Origin: a virus
DNA length: 55,418 nucleotides
Strand: one strand, 5' to 3'
IMG/VR virus record: IMGVR_UViG_3300013109_000037
Coordinates: 1-55,418 of that record
The first letter of the stretch is position 1. Every line of letters starts with the position of its first letter. The notes under the pieces were generated by a model. The model made no database searches. It saw nothing but the letters and a program-made list of their open reading frames with translations, and was not told the DNA's origin. This document shows positions 2,109 to 48,302 of the stretch, in pieces. The position numbers and the translations under genes are program-made.

Positions 2109-2376
2109 GGCAAAGTTTAAATTTCCTCGTGACCAGAAAGAAGTTAAGAAGGAGACTCAAAAGGTCGCCGGTAAAACTCTCGACATAAGGTTCGGAGAGG
2201 ATAAACGAGGCAAAGTTCATGTCTATATAGATGGTGTTTCAATGGGAGACCCATATATAAATATGAAGGCTGCTGAGAAAGAGATGAAGAATATTAAGAA
2301 TGTAATTAGACAGATGGGTGAAGAAGACATCTCAAAACATGATATACTAACAGTAATTAGGGAGTCAAATACATGA
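2068..2376 (+). CDS. gp68-like prohead core protein (by position)
   Basis: A 102-residue protein that begins inside the preceding gene and overlaps the gp21 start by 4 bases (ATGA). The central DIRFGEDKRGKVHVYIDGVSMGDPY segment looks folded, followed by a Lys/Glu-rich helix. In T4 the gene directly upstream of 21 encodes gp68, a prohead core protein; the assignment here is positional. The long overlap suggests translational coupling to keep core proteins in proportion. Confidence 0.6.
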   Translation: MAKTWEQIITILNEAKFKFPRDQKEVKKETQKVAGKTLDIRFGEDKRGKVHVYIDGVSMGDPYINMKAAEKEMKNIKNVIRQMGEEDISKHDILTVIRESNT

Positions 2377-3026: not shown

Positions 3027-3071
3027 TATATAAATAAAAGAGTTAAGCTAAAACTCAAACAGGAGAAACAA

Positions 3072-9845: not shown

Positions 9846-9913
9846 TGAAAATCAAAGCTCGACTCATTCGAATTCTCGAATGGTTACTTTTAAGAGTGAC
9901 TAAATGGAAATGA
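9845..9913 (+). CDS. Possible 22-residue peptide
   Basis: A very short ORF (MKIKARLIRILEWLLLRVTKWK) whose ATG overlaps the previous stop (TGATG) and which overlaps the next small gene. It reads as an amphipathic, Arg/Leu-rich helix. The overlap at both ends fits the packing style of this genome, but length makes it uncertain. Confidence 0.35.
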   Translation: MKIKARLIRILEWLLLRVTKWK

Positions 9914-10026
9914 ATAAAGAATACAAATTTAAACCACTTGCAGGTTGGGACGATACAACTAGTTGGCTAACAATAGCTTTCATGTTTGTTTACTTTACAG
10001 CTGCTGGAATATGGGCTTTTCGATAA
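9904..10026 (+). CDS. Small single-span membrane protein
   Basis: A 40-residue protein with one clear transmembrane segment (LTIAFMFVYFTAAGIWAF) after a polar N-terminus. The start could also be the ATG at 9910. Function unknown. It is the first of four tiny membrane or lipid-anchored proteins between 9904 and 10727. Confidence 0.55.
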   Translation: MEMNKEYKFKPLAGWDDTTSWLTIAFMFVYFTAAGIWAFR

Positions 10027-10038
10027 GATTCATTAGTT

Positions 10039-10070
10039 TATAAATATCTGCTGTATTACTCAGGTAATAC
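10039..10070 (+). promoter_or_regulatory. Late promoter TATAAATA with 5'-end hairpin
   Basis: A perfect late box at 10039-10046. The predicted start near 10052 is followed at once by a perfect 7-bp hairpin, GTATTAC-TCAG-GTAATAC (10053-10070). Confidence 0.65.
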
Positions 10071-10101
10071 ACCTGTGTTTAATTTTAAATCTAAGGAATC
10101 G

Positions 10102-10266
10102 ATGAAATTTTTAAGTATACTATTCTTAGTAATCTTTGCAGTTAGTTGTGCTTCAACTCAAACAGTTGCGACACCAGAAAAGAAAAAAGAGATGAAAAGA
10201 GATACCATTGAAGTCTGTACCGGCACTTCACCAAGACATTTAATCTGTCACGAAACAATCTACTAA
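10102..10266 (+). CDS. Small lipoprotein
   Basis: A 54-residue protein with a lipoprotein signal peptide (MKFLSILFLVIFAVSC) and lipobox AVSC. The ATG at 10102 has a good ribosome-binding site (aagga); an upstream in-frame GTG at 10075 would add nine residues and spoil the signal. The mature part of about 38 residues has two further Cys. Small phage lipoproteins can act in superinfection exclusion or as spanin subunits; nothing in the sequence decides between these. Confidence 0.65.
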   Translation: MKFLSILFLVIFAVSCASTQTVATPEKKKEMKRDTIEVCTGTSPRHLICHETIY

Positions 10267-10355
10267 TGTTTGACAAAATACCAGTATGGGTTGTAGGCAC
10301 TCTTGTCTACGGCATAGGTGGGTCACTCTTCATTATAATATTATTTTACACATAG
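10266..10355 (+). CDS. Tiny membrane protein
   Basis: A 29-residue protein (MFDKIPVWVVGTLVYGIGG, then a hydrophobic C-terminus) whose ATG overlaps the lipoprotein stop (TAATG). It is essentially one membrane helix. The TAATG coupling supports it as a real gene. Function unknown. Confidence 0.5.
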   Translation: MFDKIPVWVVGTLVYGIGGSLFIIILFYT

Positions 10356-10380
10356 TTGTTATTTTAAAACAAAAAGTTTA

Positions 10381-10415
10381 CTAAATAGATTGTGTATAAT
10401 TCTCGTGAATATACA
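10381..10415 (+). promoter_or_regulatory. Late promoter CTAAATA with hairpin at +1
   Basis: The late box is at 10381-10387, with the start predicted at 10393, where a perfect inverted repeat TGTATA...TATACA (10393-10415) begins. It serves the gene at 10446. Confidence 0.55.
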
Positions 10416-10445
10416 ATTATAATTACTATTAATAACGGAGAAACC

Positions 10446-11416: not shown

Positions 11417-12480
11417 AAATAGCGATACTCAACGACACTCATGCAGGTGTTCGAGGAGATATGTTAGAGATGGCCAAATATCAAGGCCGATTCTATGAGG
11501 AAGTATTCTTCCCATATCTCGATGAAAATAACATTGGACACATTTTACATCTCGGAGATTACTTCGATAGAAGAAAGTATGTAAACTTTGCAAGTCTAAA
11601 ATCAAATAGAGAACATTTTATAGACCCTATGCTAGAAAGGGGTATTACTATGGACTTGATTATTGGTAATCATGATACCTATTATAAGAATACCAATGAA
11701 GTAAACTCACCAGACTTATTATTGTTCGAACACGATAATATAAGTGTTATAACAGAACCTACAGTAAGAGAATACGATGGAGTTAATCTTGCACTTGTTC
11801 CTTGGATTAATAATGAGAACTATGCAGATAGTGTAGACTTCTTATTAAATGCCAATGCAGATACATGTTTTGGTCATTTCGAAATAGAGGGCGCTTTAAT
11901 GATGCCTGGAATGACAAGTCAACATGGTCTAGACCACACATATTTAAAACGATTCGACAAAGTTTATAGTGGTCACTTTCATCAAAAATCAGAACTTAAG
12001 AATATCAGGTATCTAGGAAGTCAGATGCAATTCACATGGTCAGATTATGGAGATGAAAAATACTTCCACATATTTGATACAGATACAAGAGAAATAACTC
12101 CTGTTCATAATCCATTAACTATGTTCGAAAAGTTATTCTATGATGATACAAAAGAAACTTTTGAAACAATATCAAATAAAGATTACAGTAAATTCACAGG
12201 CAAATTTGTGAAGATGATAGTAGTCAATAAAGACAATCCATATTGGTTTGATTCTATGGTCGACAAATTACATGCCGCTAATCCATTGCATGTTGTTGTC
12301 GTAGATGACCATAAACATATGGACTTAATGGACGATAAAGAATTAGAAGGAGTAGAAGACACTCTTACTATATTAGAAAAGTATATTGATGGACTAGAAA
12401 TACAAGGTCAGAAAAAACCCCTATTCGAATTAATGACTTCGTTATATAATGAAGCATTAGACGAACATAATTATCTATGA
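11413..12480 (+). CDS. 47: Recombination nuclease subunit gp47 (Mre11/SbcD family)
   Basis: A 355-residue metallophosphoesterase nuclease (T4 gp47: 339). The five Mre11 motifs are visible in order: NDTHAG, LGDYFDRR, GNHDTY, FGHFE and SGHFHQKS. It pairs with gp46 to resect DNA ends for recombination and to degrade host DNA. Its 3' end overlaps gp46 by 4 bases, giving translational coupling of the two subunits. Confidence 0.96.
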   Translation: MKIAILNDTHAGVRGDMLEMAKYQGRFYEEVFFPYLDENNIGHILHLGDYFDRRKYVNFASLKSNREHFIDPMLERGITMDLIIGNHDTYYKNTNEVNSPDLLLFEHDNISVITEPTVREYDGVNLALVPWINNENYADSVDFLLNANADTCFGHFEIEGALMMPGMTSQHGLDHTYLKRFDKVYSGHFHQKSELKNIRYLGSQMQFTWSDYGDEKYFHIFDTDTREITPVHNPLTMFEKLFYDDTKETFETISNKDYSKFTGKFVKMIVVNKDNPYWFDSMVDKLHAANPLHVVVVDDHKHMDLMDDKELEGVEDTLTILEKYIDGLEIQGQKKPLFELMTSLYNEALDEHNYL

Positions 12481-14195
12481 TTAATTTTAAAAAGATCCGA
12501 TACAAGAATTTGTTATCGGCAGGAAACACTTTTACTTCCATAGACTTAGACAGGTCGCAAACAACTCTTATTGTTGGTGATAATGGTGCTGGTAAATCTA
12601 CATTGTTAGATGCATTATGTTTTGGTTTATATGGAAAAGGGTTTAGAAACTTAAAGAAAGACTTGTTGGTTAATTCTATCAATGGTAAAGAGTTGATAGT
12701 AGAGATAGAATTTCAGATTGGAAGAAAATTATATAAAGTTATAAGAGGCGCTAAACCAAATAAGTTTGAGTTATATGTCAATGATTCATTAATCAATCAA
12801 GATGCAACGATGAGAGATTATCAAGAACATTTAGAGAAGAACATTCTTAAGATGTCCTATCGTTCATTTACCCAAGTCGCAGTATTAGGTTCTGCTAACT
12901 TTACTCCGTTTATGCAGTTAAAGTCGGTAGAGAGAAGAAGACTTGTGGAAGATTTACTAGACATATCAATCTTTTCTACAATGCAGGATATATTAAAGAA
13001 GAAAGTCACACAACATAATGTAGATGTAAGAGAAACAAACCATGAGATTGAATTGTTAGAAGAAAGAATAAATGGTCTAAATGAACAAATGGGTCTCTTA
13101 CAAAAATCTCGTGATAAGAAGATAAAGAAGTATGAGAATACCATAAAGGAGACACAAGAGAATATACAAAAGGTTATGAATGATGTTGTTCAAGAAGATA
13201 AAGAGATTGATAAAAAGAAAGAAGGCATAACTAATAAGAAATCAAATGAAGATAGATTAACTGAGACACTAGATTTAGAAAGACAATTGGAACAAGCCAG
13301 AGCTAAAGCTGACCAAGATGTCTTATTCTATCAAGAGAACGATGATTGTCCAACATGTAAACAAGGGTTAGATGAAGAACACAAGAAGAAACACATTAAG
13401 GAAAGAAAAGCTAAATCGAATGAAATCCAGAAGGCGCTCAACGAGATTGCTCAAACAATCGATGCCTGCCACGATGAAATCCAAAGAATAAATCTTATTC
13501 AAGATGAAATAGAAAAACTGCAAAGAAACATTGGATTACATCAAACAGAGATTTTATCTAATCAGAAATACATAGACAAATTGAATCAAGAGATTAAAGA
13601 TTTAAAGAATGAGACTTCTGTTGATGCTAATGTTCATGATAAATTGACCACAGCAGAAGATGATTTAGATACTTTACATATTAAGAAAGAAAGTCTAACT
13701 GATAGACAACATTACTACGACCTCGCAACAACCCTATTAAGAGACCAAGGGGTGAGGCAGAGAATTATTAAACAATATGTTCCAGTAATGAATAAGATGA
13801 TAAACAAGTATCTGGCCAATTTAGAATTTTATGTTGGGTTTGAATTGAATGAAGCATTTGAAGAAACAATCAAATCCAGATTTAGAGATGTATTTAAGTA
13901 TGATAACTTTTCACAAGGTGAGAAGATGAGAATTGACCTTGCATTACTCTTCACATGGAGAGCAGTCGCAAGAATTAAGAACTCAGTAAATACAAACATA
14001 CTTATATTAGACGAGGTGTTTGATAGTTCTTTAGATGCTCAAGGAACCGATGACTTTTTAAAGTTATTGAATTCATTGAATGAGAAAACAAACGCCTTTA
14101 TTATTTCCCATAAGGGAGGAGAGTTATACGATAAGTTCGAAGAAGTAATTCGTTTCGAAAAATATAAAAACTTTAGTCGTATATCAATTTCATAA
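12477..14195 (+). CDS. 46: Recombination exonuclease subunit gp46 (Rad50/SbcC family)
   Basis: A 572-residue SMC-like ATPase (T4 gp46: 560). Walker A (GDNGAGKS) is near residue 35, long coiled coils flank a zinc hook (CPTCKQ) near residue 295, and the C-terminal lobe carries the ABC signature (FSQGEKMRIDLA) and Walker B (ILILDEVFDSSLD). With gp47 it forms the end-resection complex. It ends 14 nt before the ammonium transporter. Confidence 0.96.
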   Translation: MINFKKIRYKNLLSAGNTFTSIDLDRSQTTLIVGDNGAGKSTLLDALCFGLYGKGFRNLKKDLLVNSINGKELIVEIEFQIGRKLYKVIRGAKPNKFELYVNDSLINQDATMRDYQEHLEKNILKMSYRSFTQVAVLGSANFTPFMQLKSVERRRLVEDLLDISIFSTMQDILKKKVTQHNVDVRETNHEIELLEERINGLNEQMGLLQKSRDKKIKKYENTIKETQENIQKVMNDVVQEDKEIDKKKEGITNKKSNEDRLTETLDLERQLEQARAKADQDVLFYQENDDCPTCKQGLDEEHKKKHIKERKAKSNEIQKALNEIAQTIDACHDEIQRINLIQDEIEKLQRNIGLHQTEILSNQKYIDKLNQEIKDLKNETSVDANVHDKLTTAEDDLDTLHIKKESLTDRQHYYDLATTLLRDQGVRQRIIKQYVPVMNKMINKYLANLEFYVGFELNEAFEETIKSRFRDVFKYDNFSQGEKMRIDLALLFTWRAVARIKNSVNTNILILDEVFDSSLDAQGTDDFLKLLNSLNEKTNAFIISHKGGELYDKFEEVIRFEKYKNFSRISIS

Positions 14196-27375: not shown

Positions 27376-27403
27376 AAAAAGGGACCTTTTGGTCCCTTTT
27401 TTT
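27376..27403 (+). terminator. Intrinsic terminator
   Basis: A stem AAAAAGGGACC with GGTCCC plus a long T-run around a TTTT loop. It separates the SAP-like gene from the curli operon. Confidence 0.93.
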
Positions 27404-27425: not shown

Positions 27426-27433
27426 CATAAATA
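27426..27433 (+). promoter_or_regulatory. Late promoter of the curli/cyclase operon
   Basis: CATAAATA with predicted start near 27439, 8 nt before the ATG at 27447. It is the only promoter I can see upstream of the run of genes to 34571, and no terminator interrupts that run. Confidence 0.65.
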
Positions 27434-27446
27434 ATAGAGTAATATT

Positions 27447-27740
27447 ATGAACTGGATAGAATTTTTAGCTGAAGTCGGAGCGCCAATTTTTGGTTCTCTT
27501 GTTATGGCTTTCTTCATATTCTTAACCCTAAAATACATCTTAGAAGGTGTACTTGATAATGTCAAAGGTCTAACAGGTATTATAACCATGTTAGAAGATA
27601 GGGCGAGAGTAATGAACAATGACATATTAAAAATCGACTTACTTATTTCACAAACTCTGGAGTTAAGACCAGATTTGGATAGAGTTGCACGGTCTGAAAA
27701 TTTTGTAGAGGATGGAAACATAGATGCAAGAAGAGATTAG
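27447..27740 (+). CDS. Small membrane protein, first gene of curli operon
   Basis: A 97-residue protein with one N-terminal membrane helix (GAPIFGSLVMAFFIFLTLKYIL) and a helical, charged cytoplasmic or periplasmic tail (IITMLEDRARVMNNDILKID). It overlaps the next gene, a protein of the same design, by 17 bases. The two may be related and may form a complex. Roles such as holin, pinholin or inner-membrane partner of the CsgG system are guesses. Confidence 0.7.
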   Translation: MNWIEFLAEVGAPIFGSLVMAFFIFLTLKYILEGVLDNVKGLTGIITMLEDRARVMNNDILKIDLLISQTLELRPDLDRVARSENFVEDGNIDARRD

Positions 27741-28065
27741 TAATGAATTGCCAGAAGATGTTCTGGACTTAGAATTAGATTATCTAACTCCTGTTGCAGA
27801 TATGCTCAATGAGTTTGGATTCCCAATTATAATTGCACTTGCAATGGGTTATTTTATCTACTTTGTCTGGAAATTTGTGACGGAAGAATTAGAACCGAAT
27901 CTGGATAAACAACAGACGGTACTTGTAAGACTTATCGACCAAATGAGAATGTTAGACCAAGACCAGATAAGATTGCAAGAAAAATTAAATACAGTTTTAG
28001 AGTATAAGCAAGCGCAGGCTCTAAAGGGGAAGAAGAATGAAGACACAAAAGATAAAGATAGCTAG
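27724..28065 (+). CDS. Small membrane protein with coiled coil, second gene of curli operon
   Basis: A 113-residue protein: an acidic N-terminus, one membrane helix (GFPIIIALAMGYFIYFVWKF), then a coiled coil (LIDQMRMLDQDQIRLQEKLN) and a Lys/Glu-rich tail. The layout matches the preceding protein. It overlaps csgF by 29 bases in another frame. Confidence 0.7.
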   Translation: MQEEISNELPEDVLDLELDYLTPVADMLNEFGFPIIIALAMGYFIYFVWKFVTEELEPNLDKQQTVLVRLIDQMRMLDQDQIRLQEKLNTVLEYKQAQALKGKKNEDTKDKDS

Positions 28066-28564
28066 TTTCGTATTTTCAATATTATTTGTATTGTTTCTAC
28101 ACGCAAACAATGTTTACGCATCACCAATAACACACGAATTTAAAAATCCATCTTTCAGTGGAAAGGGAACCGCATCTCATTATCTCACAGTAGAGAACCA
28201 AGAGTTCACTCGTAAGACGGAGATAGAAGATGCATTAGAATCAGCTCGTAAAGCTGCTGAAAGGGCAGAAGACAATACAACCCTTGCAAAATTTATTAGA
28301 AACTTAGAGAGCCGTATCTATGCTCAAATGGCCAAACAATTGGTTGAATCAATGTTCTCAAACGATACTGCAACTCGTTTTGGTTCATTTGTATTAGAAG
28401 GTAGTACAGTCACATACGAAGTAATCACTAACGCAGACGGCTCAGAATTTATTAGAATGACTATTGTATCAGAAGATGGTACAGAAACAATATTAGAGAT
28501 ACCAATAGGTTCAGGAAACTTTAGTCAGGACCCTGATCCTGTGCCAGTGCCTGGAGACAGTTAA
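28037..28564 (+). CDS. csgF: Curli assembly factor CsgF-like
   Basis: A 175-residue secreted protein. A signal peptide (KIASFVFSILFVLFLHANNVYA) is followed by SPITHEFKNPSFSGKG, which matches the mature N-terminus of E. coli CsgF (TFQFRNPNFGG), the part that inserts into the CsgG pore. A helical middle (LESRIYAQMAKQLVESMF) and a C-terminal strand region (VTYEVITNADGSEFIRM, then ETILEIPIG) also follow the CsgF plan. CsgF couples CsgG to fibre nucleation at the cell surface. The csgG gene follows with a one-base overlap (TAATG). Confidence 0.9.
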   Translation: MKTQKIKIASFVFSILFVLFLHANNVYASPITHEFKNPSFSGKGTASHYLTVENQEFTRKTEIEDALESARKAAERAEDNTTLAKFIRNLESRIYAQMAKQLVESMFSNDTATRFGSFVLEGSTVTYEVITNADGSEFIRMTIVSEDGTETILEIPIGSGNFSQDPDPVPVPGDS

Positions 28565-29451
28565 TGTTTCGAAATTTTCTTTTAAGTTCTTTATTGATTC
28601 TTATGTCAGGTTGTGCATCAATACCACAGTGGAGTATGGACCCTAAAGATTGTGATTATCAGGAGGGGTTTGGCAAAGATGTTTGGACAGGTGTTAATAA
28701 AATAATGTCCAGAAAATATATTTGTGTTGATACGCCGGAAGTAATAAGACTTCCATCATACATAGAACTGTTAAACATACCACCTGCAAAAGAAATGCCA
28801 GTGGTTGCAGTATATAATTTCATTGATAGAACAGGTCAAAGAAAATCAGAAGGTAACATTGCATCATTCTCTACAGCAGTCACACAAGGCGCTGAAGCAA
28901 TGGTTATAGATGCACTTAAAACCGCCGCTGGTGGTAAGTGGTTTAGAGTTGTCGAAAGGGGTGGTATAGACAACTTAGTAAGAGAGAGGCAGATTATTCG
29001 TTCTGCCAGACAAGATTTTGCTACTGCCAATGGGACAGAAGCACAAGGAATTCAACCTATGCTATTCGCAGGCATAATTATAGAAGGTGGGATAATTGGT
29101 TATGATTCCAATTTACTAACCGGAGGTCGAGGCGCAAGAACTCTAGGTGTTGGAATGGCCAAACAGTATCGTCAAGATGCTGTGACAATTTCTATGAGAG
29201 CTGTTAGTGTTCTCACAGGAGAAATATTATTGAATGTCCAAACAAGAAAGACTATCCTTTCTTATGGTGCTGGGGGAGATGTATTCCGATTCTTTGAAGA
29301 AGGAACACAACTTGTCGAGTTCGAGGACGGCGTGGGTAATAATGAGTCAGTGACATACGCAACACGAACAGCTATCGAGGCTGCCGTGTTGGAATTAATT
29401 TACCAAGGGCACGATAGAGGCTTTTGGATAATAGGAGAAGAAAATGAATAA
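28564..29451 (+). CDS. csgG: Curli secretion channel CsgG-like lipoprotein
   Basis: A 295-residue outer-membrane lipoprotein (signal with lipobox LMSGC). The CsgG body is clear: MPVVAVYNFIDRTGQ, FSTAVTQGAEAMVIDALK, VVERGGIDNLVRERQIIRS, IIIEGGIIGYDSN, TGEILLNVQTRKTILSYG and DRGFW. CsgG forms a nonameric pore through which curlin subunits leave the periplasm. In the pore-lining loop the Phe equivalent to E. coli F56 is kept (ASFSTAV), but the residues matching Y51 and N55 differ and the loop is one residue longer. It overlaps the first curlin gene by 8 bases. Confidence 0.95.
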   Translation: MFRNFLLSSLLILMSGCASIPQWSMDPKDCDYQEGFGKDVWTGVNKIMSRKYICVDTPEVIRLPSYIELLNIPPAKEMPVVAVYNFIDRTGQRKSEGNIASFSTAVTQGAEAMVIDALKTAAGGKWFRVVERGGIDNLVRERQIIRSARQDFATANGTEAQGIQPMLFAGIIIEGGIIGYDSNLLTGGRGARTLGVGMAKQYRQDAVTISMRAVSVLTGEILLNVQTRKTILSYGAGGDVFRFFEEGTQLVEFEDGVGNNESVTYATRTAIEAAVLELIYQGHDRGFWIIGEENE

Positions 29452-30190
29452 ATTTTTATTAAGTATAGCATTACTTTTTGGAATGTCGACATCATTCGTT
29501 TTCGCTGCTGCTACAGATGATAATGAGGTTATGATTGCACAAACTGGAGACACCTTGAAATTATATATTGACCAAATCGGTTTTGGTAACAAAATAGGTC
29601 AAAATAATTATTCAAGTGGTTCTGGTACTGCTATGACAATGACTGGTCACACTCTAGATTTAAACATCGATATGATTGGTAATCAGAACTTGTTATTCGG
29701 ACCTTTTATCACAGATAGCACTGATATAACTTTGCTACTTTCAGGAAATTCAAACTCAGTTGATTGGAACATAGGGGCCTCAGGTTCTGCTGATGATTCA
29801 GATATTAACTTTAATGTTGATGGTGATTCAAATACATTCGATTTAGACCAAGGATATTCTTTAAGTGCAGAGAGATTGAACGCAGATTTAGTCTTAGTAG
29901 GAAACAGTAATGTATTCGATGTTGATTGGGAGTCAGATGACGCTACCTGGAACTTTACAGTCACAGGTGGATCCAATAACATTAACACTCTACAAAAAGA
30001 TGGAGAACAAACATTGAACCTAACTTTAACTGGTTCAAGTGCTGATATTGATATCAATCAATTAAGTGGAACATGTGTTTCGGGTGCAGGCAATTCTTGC
30101 TCATCACCAGACGCCCATATAACCTTAACGGCGGATAGTGAAAATGCAATCATTCAAATTAATCAGAAAGACGCTGCTAACGACAGTTAG
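29444..30190 (+). CDS. Curlin-repeat fibre protein
   Basis: A 248-residue secreted protein (signal peptide ending FVFA) with at least seven curlin-type repeats of strand-turn-strand pattern, such as LKLYIDQIGFGNKIGQNN, LDLNIDMIGNQN, LLLSGNSNSVDWN and LVLVGNSNVFDVDW. These Gly/Asn turns are the amyloid-building units of CsgA and CsgB. One Cys pair lies near the C-terminus. It is probably the main secreted subunit of the CsgG channel encoded upstream. Its last 47 bases are shared with the FecR-like gene. Confidence 0.85.
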   Translation: MNKFLLSIALLFGMSTSFVFAAATDDNEVMIAQTGDTLKLYIDQIGFGNKIGQNNYSSGSGTAMTMTGHTLDLNIDMIGNQNLLFGPFITDSTDITLLLSGNSNSVDWNIGASGSADDSDINFNVDGDSNTFDLDQGYSLSAERLNADLVLVGNSNVFDVDWESDDATWNFTVTGGSNNINTLQKDGEQTLNLTLTGSSADIDINQLSGTCVSGAGNSCSSPDAHITLTADSENAIIQINQKDAANDS

Positions 30191-31295
30191 TTTAAGTCTT
30201 TTTTTATCATACGGTGGGTTCGCTTATGCTGAACCCATTGGTGATATTGTAGAAAACAAAGGTGTCACTTCCGTAAAAAGAGGTGACAGTCGGCTTGAAA
30301 CTGATGTCGGAACAGACATAGTTTTATATGATGAAGCGGAAACTGCCAATGGCAGAATGTTAATAGAGTTCCTCGATGCAGAACAACTCTCATTAACAGA
30401 AAACAGTCTTGTTTATATTGACGAGGCGTATTACGATCCAGACCCAAGTCTATCAAAGATGTCGATTAGAATGGTAAGAGGCACATCAAGATTTGCCTCG
30501 GGTGCTGGTAATAGAATTAAAAAACAAAATGTTAATGTCGCCACACCAACGGCGAACATTACGATGAGAGGGACCGATTTCACCACAACCATAGATGAGT
30601 TGGGTAGGACAATGGTCATTCTTTTGCCTGATGAAACAACAGGTGAAACATCAGGAGAGATTTTAGTATGGAATGATGGCGGTGAAACGATTTTAAATCA
30701 AGCGTATGCGGCCACAACAGTCGCATCTTTTGAGGCCGCACCAACTAAATCAGTTGTTGTTCAAGGCATAACACCTAGTATGATTGACAATATGTTTATT
30801 GTGAATCCACCACCTGCGATAAGACAGGCGATGGAAGAATCATATTCAGATGAGCAGAACTCAGACCAAGGTGTATTAGACATCGACTTCTTAGAGTTTA
30901 ATGAACTAGAAGCAAATGCATTAGATGACACTATGGAAGGAGATTTCTCCGAATTAGATATTGATTATCTAGATGTAGACTTCTTACAAGATTTATTAGA
31001 TGTTGTTGAAGCTTTAGAAAAGACTAGAGTTGTATTGGTTGATGATAGACAGGCCGCAGATATAGCAGGTTTCAAACTTAGAGGTGCATCTGCTGGGTTC
31101 AATAAAGAATCGCAGTATAATATCTTTGAACAAGATGGCGACTTAGTATTCTTTAGAGATGTGAATGGACACATAAATATAATAATAGCCGCAGGAGGTT
31201 CCGGAACTCTAGAGACCGAAGTAGAAGGTTATCAAGGTGTTATAACATTTGGTGATGGAGATGGAATAGAAATAGTTATTATTCAACAAGGTTAA
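30144..31295 (+). CDS. Secreted FecR-domain protein
   Basis: A 383-residue protein with a signal peptide (LLTTVSLSLFLSYGGFAYA) and a FecR domain at about residues 35-195: VTSVKRGDSRLETDVGTDI, then GRMLIEFLDAEQLSLTENSLVYID and VATPTANITMRGTDF, the family's hallmark. The C-terminal half is acidic and beta-rich, ending with a curlin-like DGIEIVIIQQG. FecR domains act in cell-surface signalling; in bacteria, secreted FecR proteins often neighbour CHASE2-cyclase genes (from memory), as here at 32682. The start could be the GTG at 30138; I prefer the ATG at 30144. Confidence 0.88.
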   Translation: MQSFKLIRKTLLTTVSLSLFLSYGGFAYAEPIGDIVENKGVTSVKRGDSRLETDVGTDIVLYDEAETANGRMLIEFLDAEQLSLTENSLVYIDEAYYDPDPSLSKMSIRMVRGTSRFASGAGNRIKKQNVNVATPTANITMRGTDFTTTIDELGRTMVILLPDETTGETSGEILVWNDGGETILNQAYAATTVASFEAAPTKSVVVQGITPSMIDNMFIVNPPPAIRQAMEESYSDEQNSDQGVLDIDFLEFNELEANALDDTMEGDFSELDIDYLDVDFLQDLLDVVEALEKTRVVLVDDRQAADIAGFKLRGASAGFNKESQYNIFEQDGDLVFFRDVNGHINIIIAAGGSGTLETEVEGYQGVITFGDGDGIEIVIIQQG

Positions 31296-31300
31296 TTAAT

Positions 31301-32131
31301 ATGGATTTTTTAAATAAAATAAAAACATTTGCAATAGGAACATTGTTTTCCTTATCAGTTATAGCATCTGATGATAATACTATCAACATTAATCAAGTAG
31401 CAGGTGGAGACAACTTAGAAATCGATATCATTCAAGAAGGATTCAACAACGATATATTCTTTTCTGTAGGTGATGGAGATGATGTTGTGATTGAAATGAA
31501 ACAAGTTGGTTCTAACAACGAAATAGGTTGGGCCAATGATTCTCCAAGTTGGGGTTCTGGCGCATCTTGGGGTGGTGATATTGACTATGATAACCAAACT
31601 GTTAAACTCTGGCAGAACTGTACTAAAAATTCAGATTGCAACAAGAATGATATTCAGTTTCATATTAGTTATGGAACAAATAATAAGTTATGGTGGGCTC
31701 AAGGATATGAAATCTCAAGTAGAACCGACACTAGTTGGGCAATTGATAATACAGAGGGTGGCGGTCATTATGTTACCGTAGATATACATGGAGATGATAA
31801 CGAAATAGTTGGGCAACAACGAAATTGTTCACAAGGTAATTGTGATGGACACTCAGCAAGAATATATTTATATGGAGATGATAACTCAATCTTTGGCAAA
31901 CAAAAGGGCGATGGTGCAAAAGAATTTTATTTAACAGTTCAGAATGATGACAATACTGTTGATTATCTTCAAGATGGCCATGGCGAACACAATGCAACCA
32001 TAACATTAAATGGAACATTTGGAACTACTCTCGATTTCGAACAACGAGGCAACACAACACAAAATTATACACTTACACAAAACTGCCAAACTTCTGGCGG
32101 TTGTTCTGTCACGGTTTCGCAAGGAAACTAA
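31301..32131 (+). CDS. Second curlin-repeat protein
   Basis: A 276-residue secreted protein (signal peptide ending SVIAS). The N-terminal third has clear curlin repeats (NTININQVAGGDNLEIDIIQ, then VIEMKQVGSNNEIGW) and the rest has looser repeats with GDDNEI, GDDNSI and DDNTV turns. Six Cys occur in three spaced pairs (CTKNSDC, CSQGNC, CQTSGGC), absent from classical curlins. By analogy with CsgB it could be the nucleator or a minor subunit. Confidence 0.82.
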   Translation: MDFLNKIKTFAIGTLFSLSVIASDDNTININQVAGGDNLEIDIIQEGFNNDIFFSVGDGDDVVIEMKQVGSNNEIGWANDSPSWGSGASWGGDIDYDNQTVKLWQNCTKNSDCNKNDIQFHISYGTNNKLWWAQGYEISSRTDTSWAIDNTEGGGHYVTVDIHGDDNEIVGQQRNCSQGNCDGHSARIYLYGDDNSIFGKQKGDGAKEFYLTVQNDDNTVDYLQDGHGEHNATITLNGTFGTTLDFEQRGNTTQNYTLTQNCQTSGGCSVTVSQGN

Positions 32132-32139
32132 TATCTTGA

Positions 32140-32352
32140 ATGTCTACAAAAAAAGAGAGATTTTCAACTCTAATTCGTATGCCATATCAAGAGGGCATAA
32201 GAATCATTCTGAGGGTAATAGATTATCATAATAGAATGATACTAGAAGATAAGAAGAACGCAGAGTTTCACATGAAACAAACCCATAGACTTAGAGCTTG
32301 GATGTTAGAGATGAAAGACTTTATACAAGAAAATGAACGAGAGAATAATTAA
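32140..32352 (+). CDS. Small soluble protein of unknown function
   Basis: A 70-residue basic, helical protein (MSTKKERFSTLIRMPYQEGI) without membrane segments, 8 nt after the second curlin gene and overlapping the next gene by 20 bases. The overlaps mark it as an operon member. No family recognised. Confidence 0.6.
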   Translation: MSTKKERFSTLIRMPYQEGIRIILRVIDYHNRMILEDKKNAEFHMKQTHRLRAWMLEMKDFIQENERENN

Positions 32353-32518
32353 ACTTAAAGGCGAGTGGCGTCTAAAAAAAAGGAAAAGATTTATGAGAAG
32401 ATTACTAGCATGGGCTTTGATGATTACACTTTTAGGTGGTGCATTGTATATTTACCTTAATCATATGCAACCAGAAGAGATTGTAATACCAGAACCTATA
32501 GAGGAAATCAGAGGATAA
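32333..32518 (+). CDS. Small basic membrane protein
   Basis: A 61-residue protein with a very basic N-terminus (LKKRKRFMRR), one membrane helix (LLAWALMITLLGGALYIYL) and an acidic C-terminal tail. Basic N-terminus in and acidic tail out is the predicted topology. Its stop overlaps the next start (TAATG). Confidence 0.62.
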   Translation: MNERIIKLKGEWRLKKRKRFMRRLLAWALMITLLGGALYIYLNHMQPEEIVIPEPIEEIRG

Positions 32519-32682
32519 TGCAAGACTGGTTGTTTAATAAAATGGCACCATACGCCATACGATTCAGAGAGTGGTCTAAAGGCAGAACATGGGTAAAAAT
32601 CCCATTATGGATTCTCATACTATGGTTATTAGGATTTGCTAATCCTTACTGGTGTGTATATCCTGTTTGCTGGATCCAGTAA
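32518..32682 (+). CDS. Small Trp-rich membrane protein
   Basis: A 54-residue protein with one membrane helix (IPLWILILWLLGFA), nine Trp residues and two Cys in a C-terminal YWCVYPVCW turn. Both ends overlap neighbours by one base (TAATG), which supports it as a real gene translated with the cyclase downstream. Confidence 0.6.
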   Translation: MQDWLFNKMAPYAIRFREWSKGRTWVKIPLWILILWLLGFANPYWCVYPVCWIQ

Positions 32683-34571
32683 TGTATAATTGGAAAACGG
32701 TATTACTCACTATCGTTGCATTGGTGGGTGTAAAGATATGGTCGCCTTATTTAATAGATAATGTTAGATGGTCTTACTTCGATGTTCTACATTCATCAAA
32801 AGAAAAAGTTCAAGTAGAAGACATTCTTCTAGTAAATATAGATGAAAAGTCGATAGACGCCCTAGGTCAATACCCATTCCCTAGAGAGATATATGCTGAT
32901 ACTCTATGGGAAACTCACCACACAAACACTCATGTATTCAATATTCTATTCTCAGAAGAAGATAGATTTGGTGGAGACGAAGTCTTTGCAAACGCATTAG
33001 AGAATAGATTAACCATATTATCATCTGCACCAACAGTTCAAAAAGAATCAGGCAACGCACCATTCGTAAATACATCTGTATTTGGAGATGGTGATATACA
33101 AGACCATGTATGGAACTTTCCAGGTTTGGTGAGTCCCATTCCCGGATTACAAAGTTCGGCTTGGGGTATGGGAGTCACAGTCGCTACACCTAGTGTGGCG
33201 AAAACCCCTAACTTTGATGGTACCATCAGGAGCGCTCCGCTTGTCATCCAGGCCAATGGCCAGCTCTATCCGAGTTTGGGCTTTGAAACACTCAGAGCTT
33301 TCTATGACCAACCTAATTATCAGACTAGGGTTACTAAAGAAGAGGGTATAGTTTGGGTAAAAATGGGAAGAGATTCGCCAATCGAGACCACATCAAGCGG
33401 TGACTTAATGATTTCTTATTGGAATCAGTTTGATTCCATTTCATTCTCAGACCTAAAAGAATCGGATATAGAGAATAAGATTCTAGTTTATGGTCTTACT
33501 GCTGAAGGATTAGCTAATCCAATTTCAACTCCAGTGGGTACAATGTATCCCCACGAAGTTCAAGCGAACCTAATCCAAACCGTCTCGACAGGAGTTCAAA
33601 TACAACAATCCGACTTTCTTGAATTTTTAGAAGTCGTTCTTCTTTTGATAGTCCTTCTAGGAATATTGGCATCGGTTTACAAACTTCCCACAGTCTACTC
33701 GGCGATAGTGAGTTCCAGTATCGTGTTAGTTCAGGTGGGTGGGGGTTTCTACTTATGGTCTTCATCTCTCGTTCTCTTCGATATTTTCTGGTCATCGATT
33801 TCCTCCATAGTTGTTTTCGGGCATGCCTCTTTCAACCAATACTATACGACCTACCAACTCAAAGAACAAATTAAGAAGCAGTTCCAGAAATATTTATCTC
33901 CTGATATGATTGAAGAACTCCAGAAAGACCCAAGTAAACTTAGACTTGGTGGTGATAGAAAAGAAATGTCTTTCTTATTTGCAGACATAGTTGGATTCAC
34001 TCCCATATCAGAAGCTTATATGAAGAATGATGATCCAGAGGGACTAGTATTACTTATCAATAGATTCTTAGATGGTATGACAAAGGTGGTAATTGAGAAT
34101 GGTGGAACAGTAGATAAGTATATGGGGGATTGTTTAATGGCATTTTGGAATGCTCCGTTAGATTGTCCTAATCATGCAGAGATGGCTGTGAAGACTGCAA
34201 TAGAAATAGAACTACTCACTGAGAAAATGAATCAAGAAATTAAAGATGAGGGTATGGATTTACCACCAGTAGTAATAGGTACAGGAATTAATACAGGCCC
34301 ATGTATTGTAGGAAATATGGGAAGTGAATTGAGATTTGATTACTCAGTAGTTGGAGATGCAGTTAATCTTGGCGCAAGATTAGAAGTTCAAACAAGAACT
34401 TTTGATACACCAATTCTTTTATCCGAATATACTTATATGCAATTGGACAATATTGCATGTCAACAAATAGATGAGATTAAAGTTAAGGGTAAAGACATAC
34501 CAGTTAAAATATTTGCACCTGTCTTTGATGATGGCAGAGGAAGAAAAGAGGTTCGTAAACTCAATAAATAA
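32682..34571 (+). CDS. Membrane adenylate cyclase with CHASE2 sensor domain
   Basis: A 629-residue protein starting MYNWKTVLL at the ATG overlapping the previous stop. Order: one membrane helix (residues 7-25), an extracytoplasmic CHASE2 domain (about 30-305; YFDVLHSS, then ILLVNIDEKSIDALGQYPFPR), three closely spaced membrane helices, and a class III cyclase domain (about 425-620). Catalytic features are complete: metal Asp in FLFADIVGFT and in KYMGDCLMAF, adenine-selecting Lys in TVDKYMGD with Asp in FDYSVVGDAVN, and the Asn/Arg pair in VNLGARLE. It should make cAMP in response to a periplasmic signal. A CHASE2 stretch at 33181-33300 is about 53% G+C, far above its surroundings. Confidence 0.95.
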   Translation: MYNWKTVLLTIVALVGVKIWSPYLIDNVRWSYFDVLHSSKEKVQVEDILLVNIDEKSIDALGQYPFPREIYADTLWETHHTNTHVFNILFSEEDRFGGDEVFANALENRLTILSSAPTVQKESGNAPFVNTSVFGDGDIQDHVWNFPGLVSPIPGLQSSAWGMGVTVATPSVAKTPNFDGTIRSAPLVIQANGQLYPSLGFETLRAFYDQPNYQTRVTKEEGIVWVKMGRDSPIETTSSGDLMISYWNQFDSISFSDLKESDIENKILVYGLTAEGLANPISTPVGTMYPHEVQANLIQTVSTGVQIQQSDFLEFLEVVLLLIVLLGILASVYKLPTVYSAIVSSSIVLVQVGGGFYLWSSSLVLFDIFWSSISSIVVFGHASFNQYYTTYQLKEQIKKQFQKYLSPDMIEELQKDPSKLRLGGDRKEMSFLFADIVGFTPISEAYMKNDDPEGLVLLINRFLDGMTKVVIENGGTVDKYMGDCLMAFWNAPLDCPNHAEMAVKTAIEIELLTEKMNQEIKDEGMDLPPVVIGTGINTGPCIVGNMGSELRFDYSVVGDAVNLGARLEVQTRTFDTPILLSEYTYMQLDNIACQQIDEIKVKGKDIPVKIFAPVFDDGRGRKEVRKLNK

Positions 34572-35000: not shown

Positions 35001-35365
35001 AGATTGTAATTAATCGATTGGGAGAGAAATGAAAACCAATTAGTTGAGAACAATCTGGACGATGAAGGGATCCGGTTACCGTTAATTCGAGACCTAGAGA
35101 ACTTCATCTTACTGAGTCCAGACGGATGATGTTCTTTCATAGAACAGTTTATAATTGTTCAAATGAAGGCGATTCAGAAGTAAGAGTGACTCAGTTGCTT
35201 CGTTTGCGAAGCATTGAGGAAGAAGTCCCTTCCGTGTTCGAGTTGGGAAATAAACCTCACTTTAGTATGAGATGTTGAACTTGTTTTAGATTTGCTCGAG
35301 AAGTTTGAAACCGTAAAGAGTTCGACATCCCATACGCCCTAATGCTCATTTGAGGTTAGGTATTT
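35001..35365 (+). ncRNA. Candidate structured non-coding RNA (or long leader of the sHSP gene)
   Basis: The 450 nt between 34944 and 35395 hold no convincing gene on either strand but many perfect helices. A 14-bp arm is formed by 35054-35067 with 35102-35108 and 35116-35122. Others are 35136-35146 with 35156-35167 (two 5-bp segments), a 6-bp hairpin with TTTG loop at 35197-35212, GGAAG/CTTCC at 35218-35233, an 11-bp arm 35271-35281 with 35319-35329 (one G-U), and CCTAA/TTAGG plus CTCA/TGAG at 35338-35360. A long-range 8-bp match joins 35111-35118 with 35188-35195. It does not fit tmRNA, RNase P or a group I intron by eye. The 3' end is a guess; it may read through into the sHSP gene at 35395. 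Confidence 0.7.
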
Positions 35366-35394
35366 TAACAAACAGTCGCTTAAGGAGGACTATT

Positions 35395-35817
35395 ATGACA
35401 ATCTATGACGATGTCTTCGGGAAATCATTCCCATTCGCAATAGGGTTCGACAGAACTTTTCAACTATTAAACCGTGCTGAACATTTGCACGACACTTCAA
35501 ACTACCCACCTTACAATATTGTAAAGATTGATGCTGAAAATTTCAGTATTGAACTTGCTGTTGCTGGGTTCGGTAAGAAGGATATATCCATTACAAAAGA
35601 AAAAGAAACTCTTTTGATTGAGGGTTCAAAAGAAAATCTAAGTGAAGATACTGAGTATGTTCACAGAGGTTTATCAGGCAGAACTTTCAATAGACGATTT
35701 ACACTTGCAGACGATATTGAAGTCAAGGGTGCAGATATGAAAGATGGTATATTGAGTGTATCTTTAGAAAGGATTATTCCAGAAGAAGATAAACCAGTCG
35801 AAATTAAAATTAAATAA
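35395..35817 (+). CDS. Small heat-shock protein (Hsp20/IbpA family)
   Basis: A 140-residue chaperone that holds unfolding proteins. The alpha-crystallin domain runs from NYPPYNIVKIDAENFSIELAVAGF to the typical NRRFTLADDIEVKGADMKDGILSVSLER, with a short C-terminal tail (DKPVEIKIK) where the I-x-I anchor is expected. The ATG at 35395 has an excellent ribosome-binding site (aaggagg); an in-frame start at 35350 lies in the RNA element. Hsp20 genes are common in marine T4-like phages. Expression may depend on the upstream structured leader, perhaps as an RNA thermometer. Confidence 0.94.
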   Translation: MTIYDDVFGKSFPFAIGFDRTFQLLNRAEHLHDTSNYPPYNIVKIDAENFSIELAVAGFGKKDISITKEKETLLIEGSKENLSEDTEYVHRGLSGRTFNRRFTLADDIEVKGADMKDGILSVSLERIIPEEDKPVEIKIK

Positions 35818-35870: not shown

Positions 35871-35942
35871 GCGGAGTTAGTGTAAAGAACACACTCGACT
35901 ACCAGTTGAGAGATGAAGTATCGAAACTTTCACTCCGCTCCA
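35871..35942 (+). tRNA. Degenerate tRNA-Gly-like element, anticodon position ACC, with CCA
   Basis: A 72-nt cloverleaf. The acceptor stem GCGGAGT/ACTCCGC has 7 perfect pairs, then discriminator T and encoded CCA, all typical of tRNA-Gly. The D arm is GTGT-AAAGA-ACAC with a 5-nt loop lacking the GG dinucleotide. The anticodon arm CTCGA-CTACCAG-TTGAG reads ACC, an unusual A34 glycine anticodon. The T arm (GAAGTATCGAAACTTTC) has a TCGAAA core but an 8-nt loop or a mismatched closing pair. It may be a decayed tRNA, a functional odd tRNA or a tRNA-like leader for the peroxiredoxin. Confidence 0.65.
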
Positions 35943-35963
35943 GTTTCAAACAGAGGAGAAAAA

Positions 35964-36488
35964 ATGTTTAGAGAAGGAGAACAATTAACTGTAGGTGATG
36001 AATTTCCTACTTTTAATTTACAAGGAGTTAATCCTGCAAACGATATAACAGAGGTAAGTTTAGAGGAACATGTTGGTTGGAGTGTCATTTACTTTTATCC
36101 AAAAGATTTCACATTCATATGCCCAACAGAAATTGCCGCTATGGACATACTTGTCGATGAGGCGAGAGTAATTGGTATCAGTGGTGATAATGAATTCTGC
36201 AAACAGGCCTGGAGAAATGTAAATGGAATGATTAGAGAAATCAATCATGAACTTGCAGCTGACACTGGACTATATTTATCTTCTGAATTAGGAATCGTTG
36301 ATATTGACAACGGTGTTTGTTATAGAGCAACATTCATTGTTGACCCTAATGGAACAATTCAAAGTGTTTCAGTCAACGCATTAGATACAGGTAGAAACGC
36401 ACAAGAAATATTAAGAACATTACAAGCATTAAAAGCTGGTGGTCTTACAGGTTGTGCATGGAATCCTGGCGATGAATTCGTAGCATAA
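35964..36488 (+). CDS. Peroxiredoxin (AhpC/Prx family)
   Basis: A 174-residue thiol peroxidase that reduces hydrogen and organic peroxides. The peroxidatic Cys53 lies in YFYPKDFTFICPTEI, the exact Prx active-site pattern with its preceding Thr; a candidate resolving Cys164 lies in GGLTGCAWNPGD, like AhpC-type two-Cys enzymes. Two more Cys (near 80 and 115) occur. The ATG at 35964 follows gaggag; an in-frame ATG at 35913 lies inside the tRNA-like element. No reductase gene is nearby, so host thioredoxin is the likely electron donor. It probably protects the infected cell from oxidative stress. Confidence 0.94.
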   Translation: MFREGEQLTVGDEFPTFNLQGVNPANDITEVSLEEHVGWSVIYFYPKDFTFICPTEIAAMDILVDEARVIGISGDNEFCKQAWRNVNGMIREINHELAADTGLYLSSELGIVDIDNGVCYRATFIVDPNGTIQSVSVNALDTGRNAQEILRTLQALKAGGLTGCAWNPGDEFVA

Positions 36489-36547: not shown

Positions 36548-37672
36548 ATGTTGATACTATCAAAACAAGATGCACAATATGTCGGTCAAATCTTTATCGA
36601 CTACTATGCTAATTTCGATAGAATAGATGATTATCTACGCAAAGTAAAACTAGAAAAAATGTCAGATAGACCTGCATCATTATTTGGTATGGGTCCAGAG
36701 GACGACATGTTTCAAGACTTTACGATTCATCCAGAAGACATGGAGTTCGACTGTAGAGAGGTTTCTTTATACGATGATTACATTGATATAGTTGCATCTC
36801 AAATGATTCAGAAATCGATACCAGGCAAAACTCTTAAGTGGGTTGTATATGAAACTAATACTAATAAGATTGTAGGGTTCATTCGTTTTGGTTCTCCTAC
36901 TATCAACTCTAAACCTCGTAATGAATTTCTAGGCAAACCTTTAAACACATTAGACAAAGATGTAATGAGAAGATTTAATGACTCAGCAATCATGGGGTTT
37001 AATATCATACCAACACAACCATTTGGTTTCAATTATCTAGGTGGTAAACTACTTGCAGGCATTTGTAATTCACATCTTGCAAGAGAAACATTAAACAAGA
37101 AATATAATACAGAGTTCTGTATGTTTGAAACTACATCATTATATGGCACATCTAAATCATCATCGATGTATGATGGCATGAAACCATTCTTAAGATTTAT
37201 AGGACTAACTGATTCAGATTTTGTTCCGTCAATCAATGATGATAAGTATGCACATCTAAAAGAATGGTTTGAAAATAAGAATAATGGAGTGCCACTTGTT
37301 CATGATGATGCATCGAGTAGAAAACTTAAAACGCAAGGCAAGATGATTTCTATTATAAGAAATTCATTAGATAAACATCATAGCGAAATGTTAAAACCAT
37401 TCAAACAATGTTTCGTTGATGCAAAGAATCTTACAGAACAGAAGAGACAATATCTTGGAACATATGGTTTCAAGAATGTAAAAGAGTATTTGAATTTAGA
37501 AACTGATACATTAGAAAAGAATATCAACTTTGATAGATTTGAATACGATAGTATCATTACATGGTGGAAGAAACACGCAGGTAGAAGATACGAGAAATTA
37601 AAAAATGATAACAGACTTAGAACTGAACTAGAGGTTTGGTCTAAGAATAGTAATATAGATATTATTAGGTGA
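36548..37672 (+). CDS. DUF4338/DruA-like protein, first copy
   Basis: A 374-residue protein paralogous to the one at 47022: both share the core (I/L)IPTQP(F/L)GFNY.GGKL(L/M)A..C and later TTSLYG. The order of a preceding strand pair (WVVYETNTNKIVGFIRFG), this core and a C-terminal helical region resembles DUF4338, the family of DruA in the Druantia defence system; this is my pattern recognition and needs a profile search. No catalytic residues are known to me. The gene overlaps the cytidylyltransferase operon downstream, where the function may lie. Confidence 0.6.
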   Translation: MLILSKQDAQYVGQIFIDYYANFDRIDDYLRKVKLEKMSDRPASLFGMGPEDDMFQDFTIHPEDMEFDCREVSLYDDYIDIVASQMIQKSIPGKTLKWVVYETNTNKIVGFIRFGSPTINSKPRNEFLGKPLNTLDKDVMRRFNDSAIMGFNIIPTQPFGFNYLGGKLLAGICNSHLARETLNKKYNTEFCMFETTSLYGTSKSSSMYDGMKPFLRFIGLTDSDFVPSINDDKYAHLKEWFENKNNGVPLVHDDASSRKLKTQGKMISIIRNSLDKHHSEMLKPFKQCFVDAKNLTEQKRQYLGTYGFKNVKEYLNLETDTLEKNINFDRFEYDSIITWWKKHAGRRYEKLKNDNRLRTELEVWSKNSNIDIIR

Positions 37673-46690: not shown

Positions 46691-47022
46691 TGAAAAAACT
46701 TAGAATAGAAGATATAGGTGGAGAAATTATTAAAGACACTTCTCGATATCTATTAAAAGATAATCCTTTTGGCGAACACTTAACTCTTAGCAGTACAATG
46801 TTAAGGGCGAATCAGTCAACAACTGGACATTCACATGACGACCAAGAAGAAGTTTATTACTTTCATAAAGGTATGGGTGAAATGCAGATTGATGATGAAA
46901 GATTTCCTGTAGAGGCAGGAGATATAGTTTGTATTCATAAGAAAGAATTTCATAGAGTTTTTAATACAGGTTTTTTTGGTTTATATTTTATATGTGTATT
47001 TGAGGGAGGAAGAAATCACTAA
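46690..47022 (+). CDS. Cupin-fold protein
   Basis: A 110-residue single-domain cupin. The metal-site motifs are intact: GHSHDDQEEVYYFHKGMGEMQ and DIVCIHKKEFHRVFN, giving His, His, Glu and His ligands. Such small cupins include sugar-phosphate isomerases and dioxygenases; the substrate is unknown. It is coupled to the neighbours by one-base overlaps on both sides. Confidence 0.82.
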   Translation: MKKLRIEDIGGEIIKDTSRYLLKDNPFGEHLTLSSTMLRANQSTTGHSHDDQEEVYYFHKGMGEMQIDDERFPVEAGDIVCIHKKEFHRVFNTGFFGLYFICVFEGGRNH

Positions 47023-48302
47023 TGGAACCATTTGTTCAGAAACAATTTGATGAGTATCAGGCCAATAGACCTGAGAAAGATATCATCTCTAGAGAAGAAC
47101 TCAGAGAGATGATAATCAAAGATTTATCATTTGTTTCTAAAATGGGTGTGGCAGAATACACCTTATACCAGAAGTATCAGGAAATACATTTAAAATATCC
47201 AACACAAACAGTCTCAACATTGTATGGTGAAGAAGTAAACTTTGTAAACGAAGACCATTTAAAACTAATCAATGAGACTAAGAATAACATATGGTTTCCA
47301 AATACATATGCAGACTTCGTTAATCTAGAACCAGAATTGATATACACTGATTCTGAGAAAGATAGACAAGCCGCTGGTTCTCTTACTGAGAGGTGGAATT
47401 GTTTAAGAACAATGACACACAGCCAGAAGAATTCATCTAACATTGGTAGAAATCTGCATTATATAGTTAGAGATAAAGTCACAGGTAAGTATCTTGGTGT
47501 CATTTGTATCACAGGCGACTTCATTGACTTAACACCTAGAGATGAATACATTGGTTGGGAGAGAATATACAAAACGAATTCTGGTAAACTGAATACCAGT
47601 GCTATAGGTTCGAGTATTCTCCCAACACAACCACTTGGTTTTAATTACACAGGTGGTAAACTCATGGCATTGTTATGCACTGCCGATGTGATACAGAAAC
47701 AGTGGGAAGAAAACTATGGTGATAAGTTAGTTGGTATGACTACTACATCATTGTATGGTAAAACTAAGACAGGTGGTTTATCACAATACGATAGACTTAA
47801 ACATTGGAAGAAAATGGGTTATAGTAAAGGTTCATTATCATTTGAAATGACCAAAGACACTGAAAGAGCTATGCTTGACTACGCAGAACATCATTTTAAC
47901 GAGAGATATTTTTTATTGTATGTTGCAAAACGAGAGAGTGGCCAGACATTGAAGAGAGACCATAGAAATCGTATGAGACAGTTCATGTATTCACAGTTAA
48001 AGATACCAAAAGAATTACAGAAGAGTGACCATCAAAGAGGCATTTATTATTCTACATTCTATGAAAACTCTAGAGAGTTTCTTAGAGGTGAGATAGAAGA
48101 AGACCAGTTAGTTAGAAACTCTAACGATGGTTCAGTAGAATCATTAACTCAGTTATGGAAAGAGAAATATGCCGCTAAGAGAATTACTAATCTTATGAAA
48201 TCAGATAGACAAAATTTAACTGAGACATTATTCTACGATGATATAATTAGTATGTCGTGGGAAGAATGTAAAGAAAAATATTTAGGAGATGTAGGTCGAT
48301 GA
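47022..48302 (+). CDS. DUF4338/DruA-like protein, second copy
   Basis: A 426-residue paralogue of the protein at 36548, with ILPTQPLGFNYTGGKLMALLC and TTSLYGKTK as the shared core, and a further YDRLKHWKKMGYSKGS motif. The long N-terminal helical region and Arg-rich C-terminal end are particular to this copy. Similarity to DUF4338 (DruA) is a visual impression. The gene is in an operon with a cupin and a 2OG oxygenase. Confidence 0.6.
   Translation: MEPFVQKQFDEYQANRPEKDIISREELREMIIKDLSFVSKMGVAEYTLYQKYQEIHLKYPTQTVSTLYGEEVNFVNEDHLKLINETKNNIWFPNTYADFVNLEPELIYTDSEKDRQAAGSLTERWNCLRTMTHSQKNSSNIGRNLHYIVRDKVTGKYLGVICITGDFIDLTPRDEYIGWERIYKTNSGKLNTSAIGSSILPTQPLGFNYTGGKLMALLCTADVIQKQWEENYGDKLVGMTTTSLYGKTKTGGLSQYDRLKHWKKMGYSKGSLSFEMTKDTERAMLDYAEHHFNERYFLLYVAKRESGQTLKRDHRNRMRQFMYSQLKIPKELQKSDHQRGIYYSTFYENSREFLRGEIEEDQLVRNSNDGSVESLTQLWKEKYAAKRITNLMKSDRQNLTETLFYDDIISMSWEECKEKYLGDVGR

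Follow-up and report, generated by a model that had tools for sequence, protein, structure and literature searches.

A pelagiphage-type curli secretion cassette with a predicted late promoter and a candidate anchor protein in a T4-like phage

Why would a T4-like phage carry a curli secretion pore, curlin-like proteins, a FecR-domain protein and an adenylate cyclase in one operon? We addressed this question for an IMG/VR virus record (IMGVR_UViG_3300013109_000037), a stretch of 55,418 bases with 35.6% G+C that we refer to as the window. Its positions 27447-34571 hold a cassette in which every gene lies on the plus strand and most genes overlap their neighbors (Table 1). The core consists of eight genes in the order TM1-TM2-CsgF-CsgG-CUR1-FecR-CUR2-cyclase, where TM1 and TM2 are small membrane proteins and CUR1 and CUR2 are curlin-type proteins, and CsgF, CsgG, FecR, the curlin repeat of CUR2, CHASE2 and the class III cyclase all score above the curated Pfam cut-offs. 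We propose that this is a pelagiphage-type curli (type VIII) secretion cassette that is transcribed late and serves the late, anchored secretion of curlin-like solenoids, a reading to which we give an even chance.

Table 1. Features of the cassette and its borders in the window
Feature	Positions	Strand	Basis
Intrinsic terminator ending the upstream unit	27376-27401	+	11-pair stem, 4-nucleotide loop, T run
T4-late-type box CATAAATA, predicted cassette promoter	27426-27433	+	Conservation across relatives
TM1, 97 residues, one membrane helix and coiled-coil-like tail	27447-27740	+	phrog_18771, E 6.6e-24
TM2, 113 residues, paralogue of TM1	27724-28065	+	phrog_18771, E 8.1e-27
CsgF-like protein with a signal peptide followed by the SPITHEFKNPSF plug region	28037-28564	+	PF10614, E 4.9e-12
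CsgG outer-membrane pore lipoprotein	28564-29451	+	PF03783, E 8.7e-50
CUR1, secreted curlin-type protein, 248 residues	29444-30190	+	A single canonical QxGxxN repeat followed by beta-arc repeats of the GxSN type; a pair of conserved Cys
FecR-domain protein, 385 residues	30138-31295	+	PF04773, E 4.8e-8
CUR2, secreted curlin-repeat protein	31301-32131	+	PF07012, E 3.8e-7, above cut-off
Small open reading frame, 70 residues	32140-32352	+	No family match
Small open reading frame, 61 residues	32333-32518	+	One membrane helix by eye
Small open reading frame, 54 residues	32518-32682	+	One membrane helix by eye
CHASE2-class III adenylate/guanylate cyclase	32652-34571	+	PF05226, E 1.5e-31; PF00211, E 1.4e-17

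A known phage cassette and its bacterial counterparts

An earlier note on this DNA, made from its letters alone, regarded the combination of curli genes with FecR and a cyclase as unrecorded. We rejected the novelty of the gene set, as it was published in 2022: Wittmers et al. (PMC9599517) described the order HK-CsgF-CsgG-CsgA/B-FecR-CsgA/B-adenylate cyclase (HK, histidine kinase) in Pelagibacter podo- and myophages and reported expression of the cassette in metatranscriptomes. In pelagimyophages, Zaragoza-Solas 2020 (PMC7029224) had found csgF and csgG together with three more genes and put forward "sibling capture," which is the same idea as the recruitment of new hosts suggested in the note. 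GenBank annotation gives the same gene order in HTVC008M (KC465899) and Melnitz (MZ577098), and the window shares with both the order CsgF-CsgG-curlin-FecR-curlin-cyclase of the pelagiphage type VIII secretion module (CsgG 53% and cyclase 42% identical to the window in HTVC008M, 47.5% and 33% in Melnitz). The window cassette is a member of this known pelagiphage-type cassette. The Melnitz paper describes csgA and csgB as missing, while in GenBank entry MZ577098 (Melnitz-3) two curlin-repeat proteins are annotated as part of it (9716-10435 and 11494-12510 of locus L003).

The note's account of the locus otherwise fared well. Positions of the open reading frames and Pfam matches agree with CsgF, CsgG, two curlin-type proteins and FecR in one unit, and the cyclase lies in the same operon, as the note had it; the profile searches that it named as a check place the two relevant frames in CsgF and CsgG, and the same gene order is kept in the viral loci that we fetched, which number more than 90. 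Its operon contained the genes that it listed and has to be extended at the front by TM1 and TM2.

The phage itself is T4-like, with genes for portal, protease, scaffold, major head protein, tail tube, the gp55 late sigma factor, DNA polymerase, UvsX and helicase, and it is probably marine. Its gp43 is nearest to those of cyanophages (48%) and its portal is 55.5% identical to that of Melnitz, the nearest isolates by relatedness infecting OM43, SAR11 and cyanobacteria; by these comparisons it is a divergent lineage relative to HTVC008M and Melnitz.

The cassette is widespread. A search with a CsgG profile built from five proteins found relatives encoded in at least 588 viral contigs of IMG/VR, 80 of which we fetched. 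The fetched loci gave 98 CsgG, 98 CsgF, 95 TM2, 94 TM1, 90 FecR and 63 cyclase genes; the window is counted among them, as are loci that overlap or are identical, and losses fall mostly at contig ends. All eight genes are under purifying selection (ratios of nonsynonymous to synonymous substitution rates between 0.01 and 0.39 in comparisons with at most five relatives), and we found no published demonstration of what the cassette does. Contigs binned in bacterial metagenome-assembled genomes (L094-L099; Sphingobacteriales, Saprospirales, Rhodobacteraceae and Pelagibacter) also bear the phage cassette or part of it; they are probably phage contigs in metagenome bins and were left out of the bacterial csgG counts.

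Compared with the curli system of E. coli (csgBAC/csgDEFG), the window has CsgG, CsgF and the curlin repeat in common, whereas CsgE was not found, CsgD and CsgC were not seen, FecR and the cyclase are added, and the curlin repeats are fewer. Alphaproteobacterial operons, such as that of Roseovarius (L100), have csgF, csgG and curlin genes adjacent as in the window, with CsgG 46% identical. Nearly all of the 21 alpha- and gammaproteobacterial csgG loci that we compared (L100, L101, L105-L108 and L145-L159, a small sample from two classes) have curlin-like genes, and none has FecR or a CHASE2 cyclase within about 9 kb, the flank being shorter on one side in some; this observation we did not meet in published accounts of the cassette. 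Bacterial csg operons were accordingly rejected as the source of the whole cassette, which is an assembly not seen in the bacterial loci examined.

A predicted late promoter and a pore without CsgE

The box CATAAATA lies just upstream of the ATG of TM1 and just downstream of the terminator, and boxes of the same type also precede gp20, gp22 and gp19. Within the window alone their frequency is not above chance (ATAAATA occurs 17 times on the plus strand against about 15.6 expected), and we dropped any significance drawn from the window by itself. The box becomes convincing because it is conserved across relatives and because the first gene contrasts clearly with the inner ones: of 59 distinct relatives, 49 have NATAAATA no more than 90 nucleotides upstream of TM1, and the corresponding counts are 0 of 64 for TM2, 2 of 68 for CsgF, 0 of 73 for CsgG, 0 of 73 for FecR and 1 of 50 for the cyclase, against a background of 2.6% of random stretches (the relatives are non-independent sequences, and we give no P value). 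A late promoter upstream of TM1 is likely on this evidence; the late control claimed in the note thus draws its support from conservation and none from the box count in the window. We did not find this pattern, a late box before the first gene and almost never before inner genes, in published accounts of the cassette, and such a promoter narrows the range of roles that the cassette could play.

Of the features looked for in a type VIII (curli) secretion system, a CsgG homologue, a CsgF homologue and a nearby secreted curlin-repeat subunit are present. The CsgG profile matches the solved E. coli CsgG with an E value of 2e-66, and CsgF scores 46.6 bits against a PF10614 cut-off of 25.8. The CsgG lipobox pointed out in the note is there as LMSGC, slightly non-canonical with M at -3. 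The note saw no csgE, and searches that detected the E. coli control likewise found no CsgE in six records (0 of 6), namely the window and five relatives, two of them the complete genomes of HTVC008M and Melnitz. Its absence is no bar to type VIII membership, because CsgE is accessory and is reportedly missing from alphaproteobacterial systems as well (PMC9599517). Two side observations concern these proteins: a 1.5-kb unverified "Salmonella phage" wastewater contig in GenBank (OR851715) of doubtful source encodes a CsgG that shares 44% identity with that of the phage, and five bacterial loci (L152-L156; genomes G770, G786, G716, G839 and G847, of the order of G001) encode proteins whose match to CsgF is confined to its N-terminal 40-50 residues and which have csgG nearby.

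It is conceivable that a late, ungated CsgG pore in the outer membrane, with or without CsgF, aids lysis or weakens the envelope and that the curlins are secondary. A lysis role was proposed for Melnitz (Buchholz 2022, PMC9004378), and the late promoter, the missing CsgE gate and, as a guess from the layout, holin-like functions of TM1 and TM2 would fit it. We nevertheless consider this explanation unlikely, as the curlins, FecR and the cyclase, needless for a bare pore, are conserved alongside it under purifying selection, CsgF is retained, and no match to a spanin or holin family rose above noise (best E 0.089).

TM1 and TM2 differ from the start of the module as published. Wittmers et al. 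2022 (PMC9599517) labeled the leading cassette gene a histidine kinase, while the cassette in the window opens with two membrane proteins of 97-113 residues in which family searches found no kinase domain or kinase family. A histidine kinase at the operon start found no support in these searches and was set aside, and TM1 and TM2 are probably the kinase genes of that paper under another label. A small paralogue pair also lies upstream in HTVC008M and Melnitz; an operon opening with two small membrane/coiled-coil paralogues was not met in published accounts of the cassette. Locus L087 has an extra gene between TM2 and csgF (2137-3051), apparently of the radical-SAM type (CxxxCxxC by eye), and a gap of equal size occurs there in L032, L088 and L090-L092.

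Curlin-type proteins and the protein annotated as FecR

The two secreted curlin-repeat proteins described in the note are borne out. CUR2 has two QxGxxN motifs by eye and a conserved Cys pair near its C terminus; CUR1 falls below the Pfam cut-off (17.7 against 20.7 bits) and is a clear paralogue of CUR2 (hhalign probability 99.6%, E 1.5e-23). Curlin proteins occur in every contig of sufficient length for a judgment and are conserved, and across 38 sequences CUR1 is 57-78% identical to the window copy. The AlphaFold2 model of CUR1 is a beta-solenoid (predicted local distance difference test score, pLDDT, of 77.7) that resembles beta-helical structures with Z scores of up to 17.4, among them the SufB/SufD beta-helices (Z 16-17) and putative adhesins and relatives (Z 13.6-14.6); the likeness of the model to SufB/SufD is one of fold class and not of function. 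Foldseek with CUR1 returned nothing against the PDB at E <= 0.001, and among viral models the top matches were "curlin associated" phage proteins (E 7e-8); a sequence search of solved structures gave no usable match for either CUR1 or FecR. The phage proteins have few canonical motifs, 1-2 in CUR1 and 1-4 in CUR2, compared with a median of 7 (range 3-18) in bacterial curlins, a contrast partly built in since the bacterial set was chosen for at least three. This reduced count is likewise a feature that we did not meet in published accounts of the cassette.

The protein annotated as FecR has a distinct layout: a signal-peptide-like N terminus (by eye) followed directly by the FecR domain, an acidic LDIDFL linker and a C-terminal beta region whose last strand is curlin-like. 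An iron-citrate regulator would have a cytoplasmic anti-sigma part, a membrane helix and a partner sigma factor; the phage protein does not show this architecture, the anti-sigma part being absent, and no FecI-type sigma gene was found among annotated neighbors in a non-exhaustive look. The modeled residues 31-108, a region of moderate confidence, superpose on 5ix9, a "cell surface anchoring domain," with Z 9.5 and a root-mean-square deviation of 1.9 Å across 71 of the 76 residues; the second-best match has Z 3.4. We take 5ix9 to be part of the work on the RTX-adhesin anchor of Marinomonas primoryensis. The predicted fold would be like that of LapA-type retention modules of RTX adhesins; the window domain sits in a 385-residue protein with a Sec-type signal peptide, whereas RTX adhesins are giant type I proteins. 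Work on the Marinomonas primoryensis anchoring domain is cited in PMC13090378. At the other end, an [IVLFY]x[IVLFY]xQ strand terminates 61 of 61 intact phage FecR proteins, compared with 10 of 671 unrelated open reading frames, and the same terminal pattern occurs in 66 of 66 CUR1 proteins. In Alphaproteobacteria, the nearest relatives of FecR mostly form the N-terminal domain of a long open frame, which in many cases spans 500 to several thousand residues.

These features and the model suggest that the phage "FecR" is most likely an exported periplasmic anchor and not an iron regulator. The combination of signal peptide, adhesin-anchor-like domain and curlin-like last strand was absent from the published accounts that we met, and reading the protein as an anchor offers a specific, testable mechanism and drops a misleading iron-regulation label. 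In another explanation, the pore imports nutrients or the fibers block superinfection of the infected cell; Wittmers et al. (PMC9599517) suggest cofactors, iron and superinfection, and the FecR annotation would agree. We judge it rather improbable, as a device made late would have little time left in the infection to act in uptake or exclusion, and a FecR with signal peptide and anchor-like fold is unlike the cytoplasm-to-periplasm layout of anti-sigma factors.

The cyclase and a possible mechanism of anchored secretion

The last gene more likely starts at ATG 32682 (MYNWKT..., as in HTVC008M and Melnitz). Its product matches adenylate cyclases in the PDB with E values of 1e-49 to 3e-47 and combines CHASE2 with the catalytic set of class III cyclases, which alignment places at the metal-binding Asp445 and Asp493, Lys489, Asn572 and Arg576. 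In 4 of 20 bacterial loci (L133, L138, L141 and L143), a CHASE2 protein is encoded no more than about 9 kb from a FecR relative, and partial or cyclase-only matches occur near FecR relatives in L131 and L132. In S. meliloti, smc02177, numbered adjacent to cyaD1 (SMc02176), is a FecR gene that is a target of, and is activated by, the CyaD1-cyclic AMP (cAMP)-Clr cascade (PMC5498481). An exported FecR-domain protein near a CHASE2 cyclase is thus common to such neighborhoods and the window, and the bacterial loci examined, unlike the window, are unlinked to a curli secretion pore.

Intact catalytic residues and this linkage would also suit a signaling role, in which the cyclase raises cAMP late and reprograms the metabolism of the host, while the exported proteins do no more than trigger the cyclase. 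We see little chance of this, since a mere trigger would come at the high cost of two secreted subunits and a pore of their own, and in the Melnitz cyclase Ser replaces the catalytic Asn.

For late, anchored secretion, the reading that we prefer, we envisage the following. Switching to the gp55-type late sigma factor would turn on the cassette; CsgG would form an outer-membrane pore capped by the N-terminal plug of CsgF; and the curlin-type proteins would cross the inner membrane by Sec, exit through CsgG and fold as stackable beta-solenoids. The N-terminal domain of FecR, modeled like the part of RTX adhesins that retains them in their outer-membrane pore, would stay periplasmic, while its C-terminal curlin-like strand would join the solenoid stack, so that the fiber is held to the cell. 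The inner-membrane CHASE2 cyclase would probably read the state of assembly in the periplasm and make cAMP. The phage may benefit from envelope or debris that sticks to further hosts, or from an envelope change near lysis.

Several observations weigh against this reading. Clumping was not seen in infections by Melnitz, which bears the cassette (Buchholz et al., PMC9004378), and the few canonical repeats of the phage curlins make amyloid formation uncertain. CsgF aligns weakly with solved CsgF (E 0.6) and in its N-terminal part only. As a whole, the FecR model is of low quality (pLDDT 62, predicted template modeling score 0.28), and FecR has no sequence-level match to 5ix9. Beyond its last strand, the FecR C-terminal region reaches an hhalign probability of at most 5% with curlins, barely above a reversed control, and we rejected the region as a whole as a curlin homologue. 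In S. meliloti the FecR protein is dispensable for signal perception (PMC5498481), which weakens the sensing step. Gene identities and order, the conserved box, purifying selection and the sequence features are direct results; the folds come from models, and secretion, stacking, anchoring and sensing are inferred from all of these.

A more detailed version, which we offer tentatively and regard as doubtful, makes FecR a pore-bound anchor, with the retention-like domain in the periplasm below CsgG, the acidic linker running through the pore, the curlin-like tail capping or nucleating the fiber outside and the CHASE2 cyclase sensing FecR. The phage would then have joined curli export to the FecR-CHASE2 pair, giving an anchored-fiber device made of two bacterial modules that was not seen in the bacterial loci examined.

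Directly downstream of the cassette region lie genes for an Hsp20 protein (35350-35817) and a peroxiredoxin-like protein (35913-36488). Elsewhere the window holds a paralogous pair (36548-37672 and 47022-48302) of the uncharacterized phage family phrog_19197, one member scoring 530 bits.

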